This document shows, piece after piece, positions 101-8,736 of a stretch of 24,807 nt of DNA. The DNA is from a virus. The stretch covers positions 1 to 24,807 of IMG/VR virus record IMGVR_UViG_3300044858_002288. The stretch is one strand, 5' to 3'. Under the pieces are notes generated by a model. It was not told the DNA's origin. It worked only from the letters and a program-made list of their open reading frames with translations, and ran no database searches. The translations under genes were made by a program, and so were the position numbers. Every line of letters starts with the position of its first letter. The stretch's first letter is position 1.

Positions 101-1954
101 CTATTCGACGACCATCTGCGGCGCTATTTGGATGCGTTCTAGCGTGTATCCTGCGCCCGAGGTTCCGGTGTTTCCGGTGTAGACGAATCGCCAGCCGATC
201 GACTCGATGTCGTGCGCTCGGCTGCGTCGTAGTCGTCCGGCTTTGTCGCTTCCGAATCCGACCATCTTGCAGATCTGGTTCCATGATGTCTGCCCCTGGT
301 CGGCGGCTGATAGTCGTTCCCATTCGAGGATGACGAGCTCGATGTCCGGGTCGATCGGGACGGGTGTCGTGTCGGGTTCGAGCGTGCCGGAGCCGGTGCC
401 GTCTTGCGGTACGAAGACTGCTTTCCACACGTCGGGATGCTCGTCGTCTTTGACCTTCTCGGTCGCGCAGCTGACGATACGCTCGTCGTCTTGGCTGACC
501 TTCATGATCCAGTCTGCCGCGTCACCGATGACGGTTGAGCCGCGTTCGTGTCCTGCGTTCCATCCTGCGTGGTGGATCGGCACGACTGCACAGCCGTAGC
601 GTTCGCGGAGGCTGTCGACGATGCCGATGTATTTCGTCATGTCTTGCGAGCTGTTCTCATCCAGACCCGAGGCGCTACGCGCAAGGGTGTCGATCACCAG
701 CAGCGATGGCGCCGAGGGTAGTTGATCGATTGCTAGGCATAGTTCAGCTAGGGCGATAGGATCGTTGAGCGGGACGCTGCTGGGTAGTGCGTGGAAGCCG
801 GGGATTGTGCTGACTAGGCGTGCTTGTTTCCATGCGTTGATGCGTTTGCGGAGGCTGGCTGCGCCTTCGCTCATGATGTAGGCGACGGTGCTGCCGGCGG
901 CGTGGGTGGCTAGCCCGTGATAGTGGCGCCCGGTTGTGATTGATAGGGCGAGGTCTAGCGCGTCAAAGGTTTTGCCGGACCCACGCCTACCGTAGATCAA
1001 GCCGTAGCCGCCTAGTGGTAGCACCTTGTCTACTAGGTACGCGACGGGTGGGAGGTTCTCGATCTGGGTCTCGTTGAGGAACGTGTAGCGCCGCTCGGTT
1101 GTCTCGGCGCGTTCCGTGATGAGATCGCCGAGGTACACGCTTGGCATGTATTCGGGGACGTCGGTAGGCTGGAGCTTCCCGATGCTGCGAGCGATCGCAG
1201 ACACCTCGGCGACGGGGAGTGGCGGCTTGTTCTTCAGCGCGTTCTCTGCGAGCAGCGCGGCTTCGATTGCCGTGACACTCATGCCGCGCCTTCGCATCGA
1301 TCCCGCCAGGCTCGCTAGCAGATTGTTCCTGCCGCCTTTTGTTTCGACGTGATCGTCTTCGAGGATCGGCGCGGGTGCTTTGCGTCTGCCGGTCAGGTAT
1401 TCGTGGAGCCATGCCGTGACGGGTGGCGCGGAGGTGGCGTCGGTTCCCTGTATCCACTTGTACGTCGTGCCGTTCTTGTGCCTGCTCGGTGGCGCGACGA
1501 TGTATGAGACACCACCTCGGATGTCGATGCCCGAGTCTTCGCCGGTGCCGACCGATGGTGCGTACGATCCCGACGGGTCGTCAAAGTGGACATGCCAGCC
1601 GTTGCCGGTCTTGGCGATCGGTGCCGTCATCATCGCCGTATGCGTATCTAGGTCGCAGATGTCTTTGAGGTGATCCTTCGCTGCCAGCGAGTCGAGGTCA
1701 ACGATGACGCGACGCGATGCTCCGGCGACTAGACCGATGTTCGCTTCGGGCGTGTCTTCCCATTGGGCGGCGACGAGCTCGGCGTCCAGCATCGGATTAG
1801 ATGCGCCATGCTCGCCGAGCGGGTGCTTGCCTTCCGACTCGCAGTCGACGCGTCCGCAACTGCACTTGCCTTCGTCTTTGATCCAATGGAGAGGGATGAC
1901 GCCATAGCCTAAGCTGGCGTATTTGGCGGCCGCGGTCCGTAGGCTAGGTTGCAT
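101..1954 (-). CDS. Bifunctional primase-polymerase / RecA-fold helicase
   Basis: This 617-aa protein is a predicted replication primase-helicase. The N-terminal half is an archaeo-eukaryotic-type PrimPol domain. It has a Cys/His cluster typical of these proteins (C31, C33, C38, H44), metal-binding DLD at 86-88, HVH at 121-123 and the strand GIDIRGGVSYIVAP at about 142-155. The C-terminal part is a RepA/RecA-like ATPase with Walker A GRRGSGKT at 322-329 and Walker B LLVID at 418-422, followed by a PIHHAG motif. The ATG at 1954 overlaps the end of the methyltransferase gene by 11 bp, so it is the last gene seen in the leftward early operon. In this family the two halves prime and unwind DNA at the phage origin. 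The fold assignment is firm; the exact substrate use is inferred. Confidence 0.9.
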   Translation of the reverse strand: MQPSLRTAAAKYASLGYGVIPLHWIKDEGKCSCGRVDCESEGKHPLGEHGASNPMLDAELVAAQWEDTPEANIGLVAGASRRVIVDLDSLAAKDHLKDICDLDTHTAMMTAPIAKTGNGWHVHFDDPSGSYAPSVGTGEDSGIDIRGGVSYIVAPPSRHKNGTTYKWIQGTDATSAPPVTAWLHEYLTGRRKAPAPILEDDHVETKGGRNNLLASLAGSMRRRGMSVTAIEAALLAENALKNKPPLPVAEVSAIARSIGKLQPTDVPEYMPSVYLGDLITERAETTERRYTFLNETQIENLPPVAYLVDKVLPLGGYGLIYGRRGSGKTFDALDLALSITTGRHYHGLATHAAGSTVAYIMSEGAASLRKRINAWKQARLVSTIPGFHALPSSVPLNDPIALAELCLAIDQLPSAPSLLVIDTLARSASGLDENSSQDMTKYIGIVDSLRERYGCAVVPIHHAGWNAGHERGSTVIGDAADWIMKVSQDDERIVSCATEKVKDDEHPDVWKAVFVPQDGTGSGTLEPDTTPVPIDPDIELVILEWERLSAADQGQTSWNQICKMVGFGSDKAGRLRRSRAHDIESIGWRFVYTGNTGTSGAGYTLERIQIAPQMVVE

Positions 1955-3416
1955 CGGTGGTGGTCTCGGTTGCGAATAGGTTCTGTTGCGCCAGACGATC
2001 CCGAATGATCTGAAGGTACTCTGGCTCGCGTTCGATCAGGATGCAGCGCACGTTCTCCGCGCGTGCCGCGAGTCCTGTGCTGCCTGACCCGCCGAATGGG
2101 TCGAGGATGATGCCGCCGGGTGGTGTGACCAGGCGGATTAGCCAGCGCATCAGGTCGGTTGGCTTCACGGTTGGGTGTGTGTTGTCGGCTAGGCCGCCTA
2201 CGTTGCGGTCTTGGCGGGATGCTTTTGCGGTGTAGAAGAATCGGGACGCGCCGCCACCTGGATCTGCTGGCCATGTTCCAACGGCGTCGGGTGACGATCC
2301 AGCGAACGCGCCGAGCGCGCCCTTGTTGCCGCCTTTGATTGCCGTCCTTTGGTCTTTCGGTTGCGCCACTCCGCTTTGCTGGTCCAGCATGGCGGCGGCG
2401 GTTGCGTCTAGGGCTATATTCGCAGGCCAACGACCGTTTGCGGTTGTTGGTTCTGCGTCATCTCGCCACCCATCGCCCATTGATCTGCGTGGTGCGGTTG
2501 ATCCCGGCTGGTTGATCCGAACGTCGCTCCCAATCCTGCAAGCGTCAATGTTCAGCGCGCCCGTGCCATGCTCCAGCACGTTCGCCGCTACCGTCCCGAT
2601 CAGCGGACGACGCGCCACGACAACAGGCTCGAAGGCTGGCTTGAGGGCGGTTCCCCAGCCCTGCCACTTCGAGGCTTCGGGGGTGGCGGGGGCGGTGATG
2701 TTTCCGCCGGCAATTCCAAGTCGCTCGCCACCCAATCCGCCCATGTGTGCTTCGTACTTTCCGAGAACTTCACGACTCGCCATGTTCTTACTCTCGACGC
2801 TGCGCTTGTCGCACTCTCCTTCGACCCACGCTGGGATCTCGGCGACGAGGTGGCGGATCGCTTCAATATGCTCGCGCGTCATGATTGCTGGCTGACTCGC
2901 ATCGGTGACGTAGTGGCCTCCCATGTTCGTGCCGGTCGCGTTGTCGATCTGCTTTGCGGTTAGTCCGGTACTGCGTACCCATTCGGTGAACCGATAGCGT
3001 CGCGCCTGCTGCTCATCGCTCGCGTCTGTCTTGTCAATCGCTTTGCTGACGTCGAGCGACTTCGGGAAGCCCGAGCCGTACATCCACGCGATGCAGTCGC
3101 GAATCTCGAAGCCTGCGTCCTCCACGCCCGACGCCATCCGGTGATACGTGCGCGTTCCGGCGAAGGCTAGGAGATGACCACCCGGCTTCAGGATGCGGAA
3201 CGCTTCCACAGCCCACGCCTCGGTCCACGTTTGGAAGCCGAGCGGCGTACCAAAGCCGTCCCAGCCTTTGCCCATGAACTCTAGACCGTAAGGCGGGTCC
3301 GTCACGATCGCGTCGACCGACGAACCCGGCATCCGCTTCATGACTTCAACGCAGTCGCCGGCGTATAGGATCACGTCAGCGTCGTCGAGGAATGGGGTCA
3401 GGATGTCAGGCTTCAT
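1944..3416 (-). CDS. DNA methyltransferase, probably N6-adenine, beta-type motif order
   Basis: This 490-aa enzyme is predicted to transfer a methyl group from S-adenosylmethionine to a base in a specific DNA site. The catalytic motif DPPYGLEFMGKGWD lies near residue 40. The SAM-binding motif DPFGGSGSTGLAARAE lies near the C-terminus after VKPTDLMRWL, so the order is catalytic then SAM-binding, as in the beta group. DPPY favours adenine-N6. The middle contains WQGWGTALKPAFEP and GTGALNID, which are common in phage adenine methylases. I chose the ATG at 3416 because it overlaps the upstream stop by 11 bp; a longer reading to 3458 would bury that gene. No partner restriction enzyme is visible, so an orphan anti-restriction or regulatory role is likely. 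Confidence 0.88.
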   Translation of the reverse strand: MKPDILTPFLDDADVILYAGDCVEVMKRMPGSSVDAIVTDPPYGLEFMGKGWDGFGTPLGFQTWTEAWAVEAFRILKPGGHLLAFAGTRTYHRMASGVEDAGFEIRDCIAWMYGSGFPKSLDVSKAIDKTDASDEQQARRYRFTEWVRSTGLTAKQIDNATGTNMGGHYVTDASQPAIMTREHIEAIRHLVAEIPAWVEGECDKRSVESKNMASREVLGKYEAHMGGLGGERLGIAGGNITAPATPEASKWQGWGTALKPAFEPVVVARRPLIGTVAANVLEHGTGALNIDACRIGSDVRINQPGSTAPRRSMGDGWRDDAEPTTANGRWPANIALDATAAAMLDQQSGVAQPKDQRTAIKGGNKGALGAFAGSSPDAVGTWPADPGGGASRFFYTAKASRQDRNVGGLADNTHPTVKPTDLMRWLIRLVTPPGGIILDPFGGSGSTGLAARAENVRCILIEREPEYLQIIRDRLAQQNLFATETTTDAT

Positions 3417-3558
3417 CGCTAGCCAGCGCTTCCTGGGCGATCTTGACGAGCTGCTCAAACTTCTGGTGCCGGTAGGCGCGTGGCGTGTGTTTGTATCGTG
3501 CGATCTGCTCTAGGGCTGCCCGATAGGCGGCGTGTTCGTCGGAGATGTCGCGCGTCAT
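3406..3558 (-). CDS. Small hypothetical protein (50 aa)
   Basis: A 50-aa reading frame beginning MTRDISDEHAAYRAALEQIA. Its ATG overlaps the upstream stop as ATGA (3555-3558), and its stop overlaps the methyltransferase start. It is charged, predicted mostly helical and has no membrane segment or Cys cluster. I do not recognise the family. Its tight coupling on both sides is the main reason to accept it; the longer frame that starts at 3693 runs through the neighbouring gene and is rejected. Confidence 0.6.
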   Translation of the reverse strand: MTRDISDEHAAYRAALEQIARYKHTPRAYRHQKFEQLVKIAQEALASDEA

Positions 3559-3866
3559 AGCGTCACCGAGGGCGCGTCGTCGGACAGTTCGGCGTCGAGC
3601 CAGACGAGCAGCATCGCTTGGTAGACGATCAGGTCGTGGAGTTCCTCTGCGGCTTCGAGTATGAAGCGGTGCGGATCGTTCCACTTCAGCCATTCGCGCT
3701 CATGCTCGACCTCGCCGGCGCGATACTTTGCTTCGATCTGTTCGTTGAAGTCTCGCCGGCGTGTGACCGCCTCGATCATCTCGCCGATGCCGTCGACGAC
3801 TTCGGGGATCTTCGCAGCGAGTAGAGGCCATACGTCGGGCTGGTGGATTAGGTCGATGCGTTTCAT
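3555..3866 (-). CDS. Hypothetical helical protein (103 aa), weakly MazG-like
   Basis: A 103-aa protein starting MKRIDLIHQPDVWPLL. The ATG at 3866 overlaps the upstream stop as ATGA. It is predicted almost entirely helical. The segment HRFILEAAEELHDLIVYQAM (about 70-89) has the E..EE..D..VY spacing seen in all-alpha nucleotide pyrophosphatase-like phage proteins. A complete metal-binding ExxE...ExxD set is not convincing, so I do not assign an activity. It lies within the early replication operon, where a nucleotide-pool role would make sense, but this is inference. Confidence 0.6.
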   Translation of the reverse strand: MKRIDLIHQPDVWPLLAAKIPEVVDGIGEMIEAVTRRRDFNEQIEAKYRAGEVEHEREWLKWNDPHRFILEAAEELHDLIVYQAMLLVWLDAELSDDAPSVTL

Positions 3867-4126
3867 GCGGCTGCTTTCTCGATCGGGATGTAGGTTGTGA
3901 CGGGGACGAGATGATACACATCGCCTTGCGCGGTTGTCCCGGTGTCGCACTCGTCTGCTAGGGCGGTCGTGATCTTGGCGATCAGCGTGTGAACAACGGC
4001 GAGGTCGAAATCGACATTGTGCGTGTTGAAGGCGTCAAATGTCGATTCGTGGATGATGTTGGCGAGCTCTGCTCCGTCGCGGATTCTTGGCAGGTAGGCC
4101 GGCGTGATCGTGATTGTCGTCTTCAC
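3863..4126 (-). CDS. Hypothetical protein (87 aa)
   Basis: An 87-aa protein (N-terminus MKTTITITPAYLPRI) starting at a GTG codon at 4126, in a GTGA overlap with the stop of the 24-aa membrane microprotein upstream. Its own stop overlaps the next gene as ATGA. It has a beta-rich N-terminus, a helical centre and no recognisable motif or membrane segment. I do not recognise the family. Operon position is the only context for function. Confidence 0.6.
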   Translation of the reverse strand: MKTTITITPAYLPRIRDGAELANIIHESTFDAFNTHNVDFDLAVVHTLIAKITTALADECDTGTTAQGDVYHLVPVTTYIPIEKAAA

Positions 4127-4197
4127 GGGCGCGGCTTGTCGAGCGCGAGGAACAGGATGACGAGCAGGATCAGGATCAGCGCGTCAGAGATCATCAT
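4123..4197 (-). CDS. Single-helix membrane microprotein (24 aa)
   Basis: A 25-codon frame starting ATG ATG (4197 or 4194) and ending in a TGA that overlaps the next GTG start as GTGA (4123-4126). The product is MMISDALILILLVILFLALD followed by KPRP. It is a near-pure hydrophobic helix of about 15 residues with a short basic tail. Its start overlaps the stop of the upstream gene by 14 bp. The coupling on both sides fills what would otherwise be the only gap in this part of the operon, which supports real translation. Role unknown; it could modulate the membrane or a neighbouring membrane protein. Confidence 0.55.
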   Translation of the reverse strand: MMISDALILILLVILFLALDKPRP

Positions 4198-4417
4198 CGT
4201 CGGCCTCGATGTGGTACTTCAACGATTCGAGTGCTTTTTGCGCGATAGATCCTGCCGGATGCGTTGGGAAGTAGGCGGCGATTGATCGTGCCGCGTGGTG
4301 CAGTTTGTCGTGGTTGCGGGATTGCGCGCGTGTCGCTTTCTGTTCTTTGAGGCGTCCTAGCTTGTATGCAGCGCGTTCTTCTGGTGTCGCGTTGGTTGGG
4401 TAGTCGTCGAGGCTCAT
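4184..4417 (-). CDS. Hypothetical charged protein (77 aa)
   Basis: A 77-aa protein starting MSLDDYPTNATPEERAAYKL and ending in EADDDDL. The ATG at 4417 overlaps the upstream stop as ATGA, which is why I prefer it to the in-frame start at 4429. It is strongly charged and predicted helical, with basic stretches in the centre and an acidic C-terminus. No family is recognised. It lies between two very small membrane proteins. Confidence 0.6.
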   Translation of the reverse strand: MSLDDYPTNATPEERAAYKLGRLKEQKATRAQSRNHDKLHHAARSIAAYFPTHPAGSIAQKALESLKYHIEADDDDL

Positions 4418-4518
4418 CGTCGCCGCCAACGTTGGACGACCTCGCCGACAACTAGCGCCACGATCGCGGCGACCAGGGCGATGAGGACGGCAAGATTGAG
4501 TGTTTGATCAAGGTTCAT
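4414..4518 (-). CDS. Single-helix membrane microprotein (34 aa)
   Basis: A 34-aa product: MNLDQTLNLAVLIALVAAIV, then ALVVGEVVQ and RWRRR. A hydrophobic helix (about 9-24) is followed by a basic cytoplasmic-type tail, which predicts N-out/C-in topology. Its ATG (4518) overlaps the stop of the transglycosylase-like gene as ATGA, and its stop overlaps the next ATG the same way. Size and shape resemble minimal holin-like or accessory membrane peptides, but no family can be named. Its direct coupling to a membrane-anchored muralytic-type protein hints that the two act together. Confidence 0.6.
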   Translation of the reverse strand: MNLDQTLNLAVLIALVAAIVALVVGEVVQRWRRR

Positions 4519-6912: not shown

Positions 6913-7164
6913 ATGGCAACCGCCACCACCACACAGGAGATCACCACCATGAAGATCGTCACCCGCATCTACCTCGACGACAACGGTCGCTGCACTTGCG
7001 AGCAGCACGCTGGCGAGTACCTCGCCGCAAGCATCACCGCTAACCCATCCGCCCACATCCACACGACCCCGATCGGGACGTGGGAGCGAATGACCACCGA
7101 TGACATCCGTCTAGACGGCTTCGACATCTCTTGTGATCGCTGCGACACGGATCACGCAGCATGA
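6913..7164 (+). CDS. Small Cys-rich protein with leaderless and SD-led starts
   Basis: Two starts are possible in one frame. The ATG at 6913 sits on the predicted transcription start and gives 83 aa beginning MATATTTQEITT. The ATG at 6949 has AGGAG at 6935-6939 with a nine-base spacer and gives 71 aa beginning MKIVTRIYLDDNGRC. The body has a CTCEQH motif near the N-terminus and CDRCDTDH at the C-terminus, a plausible zinc-binding pair. I do not recognise the family. It opens the rightward operon and overlaps the next gene as ATGA. Confidence 0.65.
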   Translation: MATATTTQEITTMKIVTRIYLDDNGRCTCEQHAGEYLAASITANPSAHIHTTPIGTWERMTTDDIRLDGFDISCDRCDTDHAA

Positions 7165-7349
7165 GCGCGACTCTGATCTATGTATCGTCTACGCGTAACC
7201 CAGCCGTTCAAGTCTGGGCGCTAGATCGTGGCGGCTATGTCGTCGTCGAGCGAGATAGACGACATGAGTTTGACTACCTTCCCGAAGCGCGTGCATATGC
7301 CTTTGCAAAGACTCGCACGATCAAAGCAGAGCGCAGCGTGAAAGCGTGA
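7161..7349 (+). CDS. Small hypothetical protein (62 aa)
   Basis: A 62-aa product starting MSATLIYVSSTRNPAVQVWA. Its ATG overlaps the previous stop as ATGA, and its stop overlaps the start region of the cytosine methyltransferase. It is predicted as a small beta-sheet followed by a basic helix (ARAYAFAKTRTIKAERSVKA). No family is recognised; tight coupling on both sides supports translation. Confidence 0.6.
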   Translation: MSATLIYVSSTRNPAVQVWALDRGGYVVVERDRRHEFDYLPEARAYAFAKTRTIKAERSVKA

Positions 7350-8149
7350 CACCGCTCACCGTTGGAAGCACCTTCACGGGTGTCGGCGGTGCCGACCTTG
7401 GCTTCGAGCAGGCAGGCTTCACGATCAGCTGGCAATGCGAGTTGGATGCGTGGAAGCGAAGTGTTCTCGCAGCGCATTGGCCAGACGTTCAGATCTTCGA
7501 CGACATCACGACCATGCTTGACCCGCCGCCCGTAGATATTCTGATTGGCGGCTTCCCATGCCAAGACCTCTCGGTCGCTGGCCAACGAAAGGGCTTCACC
7601 GGTGAACGATCCGTCCTCGCATTCGAGTTTCTCCGACTTGCAGAGTCTATTCGACCCCGCTGGCTTGTCTTGGAGAACGTACCCGGACTCCTTAGCAGCT
7701 CACAAGGCGCAGACTTCGCCCGACTCATCGACGAAGTGGTCGCGTGCGGGTACGGCGTGGCATGGCGGATTCTCGATGCCCGATACTTCGGCGTACCTCA
7801 AAGACGAAGGCGAGTGTTCATCGTTGCCCGTCGAACCGACGCTATCGTCGATTCTCCAGAGGCAAGTCGACTCGCGCTACGCGCTCTCCGCGAAAGCGGC
7901 AGCGGGGATATTGCGTCGGGCTGGCAAGCGTGGCAGGAAACTGCCCGAGGTGCTGGAGAAAGCATTGAAGGCAGTAGCAGCGTCGGAACCCACGGACGAA
8001 CAGACGAAACCCAAACCGGCACGCTAACCCGGATGTACGCCGAACAATCAGGACAAGACTTCGGGGGGGGGGCTGGAGTCGTGACAACATCTACAACGCC
8101 ACCGCAGCCTTCGGAGCCTGGACAGAAGACACAAAGGCAGGCGTCTTGA
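7346..8149 (+). CDS. DNA cytosine-5 methyltransferase, N-terminal catalytic part (frame-interrupted)
   Basis: This 267-aa frame carries the catalytic half of a C5-cytosine methyltransferase. It has SAM motif FTGVGGADLGFEQAG (10-24), catalytic GGFPCQDLS with C72, ENVPGL at 110-115 and QRRRRVFIVA at 152-161. It then enters the target-recognition region and meets a run of ten G (8063-8072). Past the run this frame yields low-complexity sequence and stops at 8149, while motifs IX and X continue in the -1 frame. That frame is open with sensible sequence from the G run onward. One extra G, or two fewer, would give a continuous enzyme of 463 or 462 aa, close to the usual family length. The start is a GTG at 7346, overlapping the previous stop. 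The interruption may be phase variation, programmed slippage or a homopolymer sequencing error. Confidence 0.85.
   Translation: MTPLTVGSTFTGVGGADLGFEQAGFTISWQCELDAWKRSVLAAHWPDVQIFDDITTMLDPPPVDILIGGFPCQDLSVAGQRKGFTGERSVLAFEFLRLAESIRPRWLVLENVPGLLSSSQGADFARLIDEVVACGYGVAWRILDARYFGVPQRRRRVFIVARRTDAIVDSPEASRLALRALRESGSGDIASGWQAWQETARGAGESIEGSSSVGTHGRTDETQTGTLTRMYAEQSGQDFGGGAGVVTTSTTPPQPSEPGQKTQRQAS
7602..8027 (+). CDS. Protein overprinted on the cytosine methyltransferase (141 aa)
   Basis: A frame different from the methyltransferase stays open here and gives protein-like sequence. It has GLSWRTYPDSL, then SPDSSTKWSRAGTAWHGGF, GECSSLP and YALSAKAAAGILRRAGKRGR followed by KLPEVLEKALKAVA. From memory, phage proteins with a WRT...S..W..SG...SSL..ILE...LS.rA..GILRRAekRGk.LP pattern are common near phage Dcm genes. 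I cannot search to confirm. The methyltransferase frame below this segment looks like the variable stretch after QRRRR in related enzymes, so both frames appear to follow known families. Starts available are GTG 7602, preceded by AAAGGG, and TTG 7545 (160 aa). Function unknown. A dual-coded region is my inference. Confidence 0.5.
   Translation: MNDPSSHSSFSDLQSLFDPAGLSWRTYPDSLAAHKAQTSPDSSTKWSRAGTAWHGGFSMPDTSAYLKDEGECSSLPVEPTLSSILQRQVDSRYALSAKAAAGILRRAGKRGRKLPEVLEKALKAVAASEPTDEQTKPKPAR
8063..8072 (+). repeat. Poly-G tract G10 inside the methyltransferase
   Basis: Ten consecutive G lie exactly where the reading frame of the cytosine methyltransferase is lost. Gain of one G or loss of two restores the frame to the downstream part. 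Long mononucleotide runs are classic slipped-strand mutation sites, and also classic error sites for sequencing. Confidence 0.9.
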
Positions 8150-8736
8150 GCAAGCGCGACTACAAATCCACGAATCACCTCCTTGTGACTGACGGGGGGG
8201 GGCTTGCATTCCGCAAGTCCAGAAGGGCGCAAAGCATGAATGACGATGAGACATGGGTCGAAGGCGATTACGCCAATACGCTCAACTCGTTTGACGCGGG
8301 AGACGTTAGGACGACGCACGCCATCATCGGACAGACATTCCCAATCGACGACGGGCGCGACCTTGAGAAGCACCAGAACGGCACAAGCATCGGTGCTGCT
8401 GGTGATCCTGCGTACACGATCGATAGGCAACAACGCCCAGCGGTCGCGCATTTGATCCCGTTCGATACCAACTTCTCAAATCAACAAGCACCGGGTGGCA
8501 ATACGGCCGCAACGCTCGACACGCGAGGGCAGCAGGGAGTCGCTGACCAGATGAGCGTCCGCCGTCTGACCCCGACGGAGTGCGAGCGGCTCATGGGTTG
8601 GCCTGACGAGTGGACGGCACCCGAAGGCGTGAAGGCGCCCGACTCGAAACGCTACGCAGCGTGTGGCGACGGTATCGTTGCGCCCGTCGCGTTCTGGATC
8701 GCAGACCGCATCCGCATGATCGAAGGAGAAGCATGA
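8146..8736 (+). CDS. DNA cytosine-5 methyltransferase, C-terminal part (recognition region, motifs IX-X)
   Basis: The 196-aa frame beginning at a weak TTG (8146) carries the rest of the enzyme. It has part of the target-recognition region (DETWVEGDYANTLNSFDAGD), motif IX VRRLTPTECERLMGWPDEW (138-156) and motif X YAACGDGIVAPVAFWIADRI (170-189). The same frame is open upstream to the G10 tract (from about 8071), reading GWSRDNIYNATAAFGAWTED, so the true protein very likely does not start at TTG. It alone cannot methylate because it lacks the SAM-binding and PC motifs. It could complement the N-terminal part in trans if both are made, but a single frame-restored enzyme is simpler. The stop overlaps the next ATG as ATGA. 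Confidence 0.8.
   Translation: MSKRDYKSTNHLLVTDGGGLAFRKSRRAQSMNDDETWVEGDYANTLNSFDAGDVRTTHAIIGQTFPIDDGRDLEKHQNGTSIGAAGDPAYTIDRQQRPAVAHLIPFDTNFSNQQAPGGNTAATLDTRGQQGVADQMSVRRLTPTECERLMGWPDEWTAPEGVKAPDSKRYAACGDGIVAPVAFWIADRIRMIEGEA
8194..8202 (+). repeat. Second poly-G tract (G9) in the same methyltransferase
   Basis: Nine consecutive G, encoding three glycines in VTDGGGLAF, lie about 120 bases after the first tract and in the same recognition region. Here the count is in frame with motifs IX and X. A one-base change would switch the downstream part off. Confidence 0.9.

Follow-up and report, generated by a model that had tools for sequence, protein, structure and literature searches.

A protein-coding frame nested in a phage C5-cytosine DNA methyltransferase gene, probably encoding a second subunit of the enzyme

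The window, i.e. the whole stretch of DNA analysed here, is an entire IMG/VR virus record of 24,807 bases, which also encodes a primase/polymerase-type protein, an exonuclease, a tape measure protein, a glycosyltransferase and a second DNA methyltransferase; the latter belongs to a different family and lies on the opposite strand (1944-3458, minus strand; PHROG 67, E 6e-77). The gene studied here starts on the plus strand with a GTG overlapping the stop codon of the preceding open reading frame (7161-7349), and its first part, hereafter alpha (7346-8149), corresponds to the N-terminal part of a C5-cytosine DNA methyltransferase with motifs I-VIII (PHROG 116, E 2.5e-69; PF00145, E 3.2e-50, far over the cut-off). 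As the original prediction had it, this frame contains PCQ (motif IV, 7556-7564), ENVPGL (motif VI, 7673-7690) and QRRRR (motif VIII, 7799-7813). Motifs IX and X are present, but in a second open reading frame, the C-terminal part of alpha, which occupies 8146-8736 on the plus strand in the -1 frame relative to the first part (PF00145, E 4e-8), with motif IX (RRLTPTECERLMGW) at 8560-8601 and motif X at 8665-8688. The frame change between the two halves is located at a tract of ten G (8063-8072), and the same tract and break are found in a relative (L001, tract at position 2113). With alpha split at this tract, the enzyme may or may not be active in this particular phage. A run of nine G follows at 8194-8202, and runs of 8-11 G were seen downstream of the core described below in 19 of 182 loci, with an A run in one more; in several loci, the window and L001 among them, the alpha frame stops near the G run and motif IX is in another frame. 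These runs look like slippage-prone sequences that might form a phase-variable switch in the phage methyltransferase, or they may reflect an assembly error.

Inside alpha, the +1 frame stays open between 7545 (TTG) and 8027, and both frames of the same strand are open over 7602-8027, where a second protein had been proposed. This nested gene, hereafter beta (7602-8027, plus strand, 141 aa), has its best candidate start at GTG 7602, with a Shine-Dalgarno-like GAAAGGG (7587-7593) 8 nt upstream, a signal that is weak alone and is to be read with the enrichment of such start signals at the family level. The equivalent start is a GTG in three close relatives (L001, L003, L004) and a neighbouring ATG in a fourth (L002). 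The second-frame peptides GLSWRTYPDSL, SSTKWSRAG, GECSSLP and GILRRAGKRGRKLP all read as described, the RTYPDSL region lying opposite motif VI and the KDEGECSSL region opposite motif VIII. The methyltransferase frame opposite the GILRRA core does read as the FERE.L.GD..PRREAGQG stretch that had been proposed. The core itself (SAKAAAGILRRAGKRGRKLP, 7887-7946) follows the pattern YxLSxKAxxGILRRAxxRGxxLP which, together with its location in the +1 frame of alpha, places the window beta in the nested family; it comprises two modelled helices and resembles the hinge that follows motif VIII in canonical C5-methyltransferases. The family model, built in part from this sequence, matched its own record at E 9e-51. 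A Pfam search with the window beta gave no match at E up to 1, and the best PHROG match was weak (16143, E 0.0017). A hidden HNH or other endonuclease was rejected, as no Pfam family was found in the window protein and no HNH family among 19 members.

Beta recurs in many phages. Searching phage genomes by tblastn with beta returned 132 records at E up to 0.01, and the 60 of these matches that were listed include P1, P7 and SJ46 as well as phages of Mycobacterium, Vibrio, Ruminococcus, Akkermansia, Pseudanabaena, Caulobacter and Roseobacter. Of 21 annotated loci from phage and plasmid collections, 20 have beta in frame +1 of the methyltransferase CDS, the exception being FP_Toutatis (L017), and the nested frame was itself annotated in one of the 21, Streptococcus phage MM1 1998. 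Scans with the beta alignment confirmed at least 590 of at least 600 matching stretches in viral sequences and at least 583 of at least 595 in GTDB genomes, with 80 loci kept from each. One or more alpha motifs occur in the -1 frame in 179 of the 182 loci with the beta core; the other three are at a contig edge (L006), masked (L152), or combine a truncated alpha with an altered motif VIII (L136). Five loci of Gram-positive phages (L102-L104, L106, L107), read by hand as they are without the strict core, have a shorter core that ends near YFLS. A divergent nested +1 frame with a RLSTKALDGILRR...LP core was also seen in Vibrio phage 1.052.A (L374, 1793-2152, 28.9 bits), which suggests that the family may extend beyond what the scans show.

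The converse selection gave the same picture: among 80 viral loci picked by alpha alone, partly on the same contigs as in the beta scan and with an alpha alignment built from beta-carrying loci, beta was present in all 80. Thirteen of these had been skipped by a motif rule at first scoring and all were then scored, with 67 at 118 bits or more and the other 13 at 45-195 bits. Finally, 15 bacterial genomes with a prophage-type gene returned 27 distinct PF00145 genes as loci, 17 of which scored 160-252 bits for beta, and the 10 host-type genes at most 22 bits or nothing. Given this clean split with no scores between, beta is a property of one phage-type class of C5-methyltransferase and not of the whole family. 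The nested beta is thus spread over phages and prophages of many bacterial phyla, including the dmt genes of P1 and P7; the expectation that the dual coding is conserved across distant phages, with a recurrent GILRRAxKRGKxLP core and homologues overlapping a Dcm-type gene, was borne out.

Similarity in a second frame could arise as a by-product of alpha conservation, or from an RNA or DNA element, with no second protein. Alpha conservation alone does yield some +1 similarity, with null means of about 10-50 bits, and host enzymes reach up to 22 bits. To set the null, the alpha protein was kept fixed while synonymous codons were permuted 300 times, and the +1 frames were scored with leave-cluster-out profiles: the actual beta score exceeded every permutation in 18 of 18 sequence clusters. 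The window beta scored 176.6 bits against a permutation mean of 36.8 (sd 14.8, maximum 82.4), and its +1 frame stayed open in just 8 of 300 permutations. The gap among the 27 PF00145 genes, 17 at 160 bits or more and 10 at 22 or less, also speaks against a by-product.

The codon positions are consistent with this result. In the core (79 of 88 loci, copies of 85% or more dropped), entropy at beta positions 1, 2 and 3 is 0.94, 0.79 and 1.56 bits, and amino-acid entropy is 1.29 for beta vs 2.37 for alpha. Since beta position 3 is alpha position 1, this pattern goes beyond what alpha constraint alone would give. Core positions 26, 29 and 30 (L, A, L), which lie outside all search patterns, are kept in 79, 73 and 79 of the 79 loci. 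Changes at alpha position 3, divided by those at position 1, were compared by region in 117 close pairs: the ratio is 2.27 upstream, with 2.28 downstream and 2.54 in the N-terminal overlap, whereas around motif VIII it falls to 1.45 and in the core to 0.78. Constraint on beta is therefore strong in the core and the middle, and none is visible in the N-terminal part (ratio 2.54). Reduced synonymous change in the overlap, which had been suggested as a check, was thus seen in the core, where the second frame is kept and not freely broken by synonymous variation, and not in the N-terminal half. Two-way resampling of 81 loci, left once copies were removed, indicated constraint on both frames: conditional on alpha, the core beta outscored each of the 200 resamplings at every one of the 81 loci (median z 7.1); conditional on beta, the core alpha did so at 52 of them (median z 2.9), and alpha would gain a stop in 74% of the core resamplings. 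An RNA or DNA element is also at odds with the variation at beta third positions and with the synonymous exchanges among Arg, Leu, Gly and Ala codons. Barring errors in the alignments, the shuffles, codon-position tests, close pairs and resampling refute both a by-product and such an element, chance included, and we give this explanation next to no weight. The nested second frame is real, far beyond chance.

The question of how the +1 product would be made is related to the starts. An ATG with a Shine-Dalgarno match of at least 4, open to the core, is found inside alpha in 91 of 131 loci (left once copies were removed) vs 9.2 expected, and many of these pairs are located at the family start. 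Alternatively, the product could come mainly from ribosomal frameshifting, as a fusion of the alpha N-terminus to beta and not from its own start, and the annotated CDS of FP_Toutatis, which passes from the alpha frame to the beta frame, would fit such a mechanism. In that locus (1558-2163) the CDS fuses the N-terminal half of alpha to the C-terminal half of beta, with the remainder of alpha in another frame; this fusion may be natural, or it may stem from a mutation or a sequencing error. It is one of 21 annotated loci, and the strong enrichment of internal starts argues against frameshifting, which we regard as very unlikely.

The nature of beta is indicated by its core. In the structural model, the confident part consists of two core helices (window residues 97-110 and 116-127; pLDDT about 88-96 by blocks, vs about 50-70 for the rest of beta). 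A fold search with the model of a relative (L038) gave no match at E ≤ 0.001 among the 23 listed, and a PDB sequence search with beta gave none. When the beta alignment was compared with 28 full-length single-chain C5-methyltransferases, the best match was the segment directly after motif VIII, the hinge, whose consensus in these enzymes is DIL...VdeKYTLSDKLWaYLq.YAeKH; the hhalign score was 39.2, vs a mean of 11.8 (sd 2.2, maximum 19.7) for 100 column-shuffled alignments. With a hinge profile, the window beta scored 13.1 bits and MM1-type betas 15.7-19.9 bits, in both cases with 0 of 200 nulls as high, and the alpha frame gave no positive score in 31 loci. The similarity is found at profile level and is weak per locus: 15 of 31 loci beat all 200 nulls, the rest are weak singly, and the P1 score (L007) was matched or exceeded by 12 of 200 nulls. 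In phage RB43 the enzyme is a single chain whose own frame includes the hinge (28.5 bits), and no beta frame was found at that locus. The beta core is thus probably the methyltransferase hinge displaced into the +1 frame, with an alpha that has none. If so, the methyltransferase frame is probably the newer text over the core, and it is the N-terminal half of beta alone, opposite motifs IV-VIII, that looks overprinted. The idea of a second protein overprinted on the methyltransferase therefore stands as regards a nested protein, and has to be amended as regards the core, which is probably a displaced piece of the methyltransferase and not an unrelated protein.

The position of motif IX brings further information. 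Among 143 classified loci (of 182, with 5 fragmentary or fused loci and 34 near copies left out), motif IX is in alpha in 102, in beta and absent from alpha in 10, and in another, downstream open reading frame in 17; 9 are without a motif IX that we could find and 5 are cut by contig ends. Eight loci (L029, L030, L031, L035, L039, L042, L044, L052) have motif IX in beta with motif X back in the alpha frame, and in two others (L024, L143) beta carries motif X besides motif IX, the motif X assignments being made by eye for L024, L044 and L052. A related layout is that of PHROG 1008, in which a nested +1 frame ends in motif IX (e.g. LNPEFVEWLMGYPTGWT) and alpha carries I-VIII and X; of 14 loci examined, 10 had a detectable alpha and 9 of these showed this layout (motif X by eye), and the tenth, L337, is a single-chain enzyme matched over its own motif IX region only. 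Two loci look similar to this type, L376, whose nested frame has motif IX, and ShiLan gp70, whose nested frame shows no clear motif IX over the part read. The N-terminal halves of window-type and PHROG 1008-type betas are more alike than the null mean in 9 of 9 loci, with 2-28 of 300 nulls as high, and the reverse comparison is mixed (0-300 of 300 nulls as high). The N-terminal half alone was not retained as a tie between the two types, the similarity being modest against shuffles and partly above the level expected from the shared alpha.

In lines whose alpha is without motif IX, the enzyme is complete only if beta provides that motif, which makes beta an enzyme subunit there. The window is among the 17 loci with motif IX in a downstream frame: its beta ends at 8027, ahead of any motif IX, and alpha has motifs IX and X in its C-terminal part. 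The necessity of beta does not follow from motif content there, and the subunit reading is best for the window too because its core is shared with the relatives that carry motif IX in beta. Alternatively, beta might be a real nested protein of another kind, an accessory factor such as a regulator or an anti-restriction or anti-defence protein, nested for compactness or coupled expression. An alpha that retains motif IX, as in 102 of the 143 loci, could act alone, and known families do not place the protein: Pfam and NCBIfam searches of family members gave just scattered one-member matches at E 0.02 or worse, and PDB sequences and folds gave none. The resemblance of the core to the hinge and the presence of motif IX in some betas where alpha is without it argue against such a factor. 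Independent copies would also be expected for it, and none was found away from a methyltransferase gene among the matches listed in the viral and genome scans. We thus consider the accessory factor improbable.

Several known systems are comparable. M.EcoHK31I recognises YGGCCR and has its small-subunit gene inside the large-subunit gene, in a different frame; M.EaeI is similar. M.EcoHK31I is described as a two-polypeptide C5-methyltransferase with motif IX on the small subunit and motifs I-VIII, X and the target-recognition domain on the large one (PMC3404938). The combination of a small second polypeptide and an alpha that bears motifs I-VIII is found here too, and the motif layout matches that of the eight loci above. 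The window also has its second polypeptide within alpha in another frame. In contrast, the window alpha keeps motifs IX and X and its beta consists of the hinge and a variable N-terminal half, so that motif IX in beta and absent from alpha, seen in 10 of 143 relatives, is not the arrangement of the window. Judged by motif layout, M.EcoHK31I would be a relative in design, and the two-polypeptide design was already known. M.AquI is described as a C5-methyltransferase split in the variable region into two polypeptides, with motifs IX-X in beta (PMC3404938); the L024 and L143 betas likewise carry both motifs, whereas the passages on M.AquI mention no long nested overlap. The ShiLan domain is described as an out-of-frame HNH insertion in phage methylases (PMC11855218). 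There, too, a phage methylase gene harbours a further protein in a different frame, but as a homing endonuclease insertion this protein does not overlap the conserved methylase motifs and is unrelated, and no such HNH domain was found in the window beta.

A precedent also exists as a database annotation. In Streptococcus phage MM1 1998 (DQ113772, orf13/orf14), the nested +1 gene is present as orf14, which bears the label 'C5 methyltransferase beta subunit' and matches PHROG 16143 over its full length; it differs in that its core stops soon after YFLS, without GILRRA. We found no paper on this orf14. PHROG 16143 is the core-only nested family, matching 11 of 19 members, and PHROG 1008 the nested +1 type with motif IX; both are described as plain 'DNA methyltransferase', with no mention of nesting. 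No paper describing the nested family was found among the open-access papers searched, nor were the core-only variant with a complete alpha, its spread over many phyla and its presence in P1 dmt found in print there. The conserved dual coding had been expected to be unusual, and given the MM1 1998 record and the M.EcoHK31I design it is not wholly unprecedented.

Taken together, we propose, with a probability of roughly 0.78, that the window encodes a two-polypeptide C5-cytosine DNA methyltransferase whose beta subunit is nested in the +1 frame of alpha and which would operate in the manner of M.EcoHK31I, and the best reading of the sequence is a variant in which beta retains the hinge only. 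Alpha would be initiated at its own start and beta separately, at an internal GTG or ATG with a Shine-Dalgarno-like sequence. Alpha would provide SAM binding and catalysis (motifs I-VIII), and in the window variant motifs IX-X as well. In single-chain enzymes the hinge is directly after motif VIII; here, with an alpha that appears to have none, beta would supply it in trans (consensus SLSDILE..vP.rYyLS.KA..GILRRA.KRG), joining the catalytic domain and the target-recognition region. One shared message might keep the partners together and in proportion. We infer from these genomic data that beta is translated in the cell, that it assembles physically with alpha and that methylation needs it. As to how this arose, a single-chain ancestor of the gene probably slipped into the +1 frame beyond motif VIII and later returned to its original frame, and the point of return would differ by lineage (before IX, before X, or never), giving the three layouts. 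The +1 stretch would then have gained an internal start upstream, so that the N-terminal half of beta came to read across motifs IV-VIII and would be the truly overprinted part. What alpha now reads over the former hinge would be the FERESL.G.PP.REAG stretch, which is poorly conserved; the hinge would be the old text and the alpha reading the newer one.

The dmt genes of phages P1 and P7 carry the nested beta, which in P1 scored 165 bits with a profile that includes P1 sequences (through L007) and has an ATG 7 nt after GTGGAG; in the reference P1 genome it is 157 aa long. The reference P1 record has 535 annotated features and no frame nested in dmt in the stretch shown. In the P1 locus used here (L007, OP279344, dmt at 1401-4442), an intein-like insertion separates the PC and Q of motif IV, and the dmt CDS is longer than that of the reference P1 (3042 vs 2265 bases). 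Many P1-like plasmids in E. coli cover just 40-49% of the query. According to the reference record, Dmt methylates adenine in GATC 'and perhaps' cytosine. In a broader proposal, which we judge slightly more probable than its opposite, phage C5-methyltransferases as a class, P1 Dmt included, would be reading-frame relays encoding an obligate heterodimer in one DNA stretch, the ancestral hinge, in some lines with motif IX or IX-X, having moved into the nested +1 gene. Were this true, the mere 'perhaps' on record for cytosine methylation by P1 Dmt would be accounted for. With the subunit model, this unproven activity becomes directly testable. If beta is needed, cytosine methylation assays would require both polypeptides, and tests with alpha only would miss the activity. 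Beta is missing from nearly all annotations examined, though it lies inside a very familiar phage enzyme gene; under the broader proposal, few long nested genes on the same strand would be as widespread in tailed phages, and it would have been overlooked through the habit of annotating the longer frame only. The loci would also offer a large natural data set, across many phyla, on two-frame selection and on how a single-chain enzyme may be split without gene fission.
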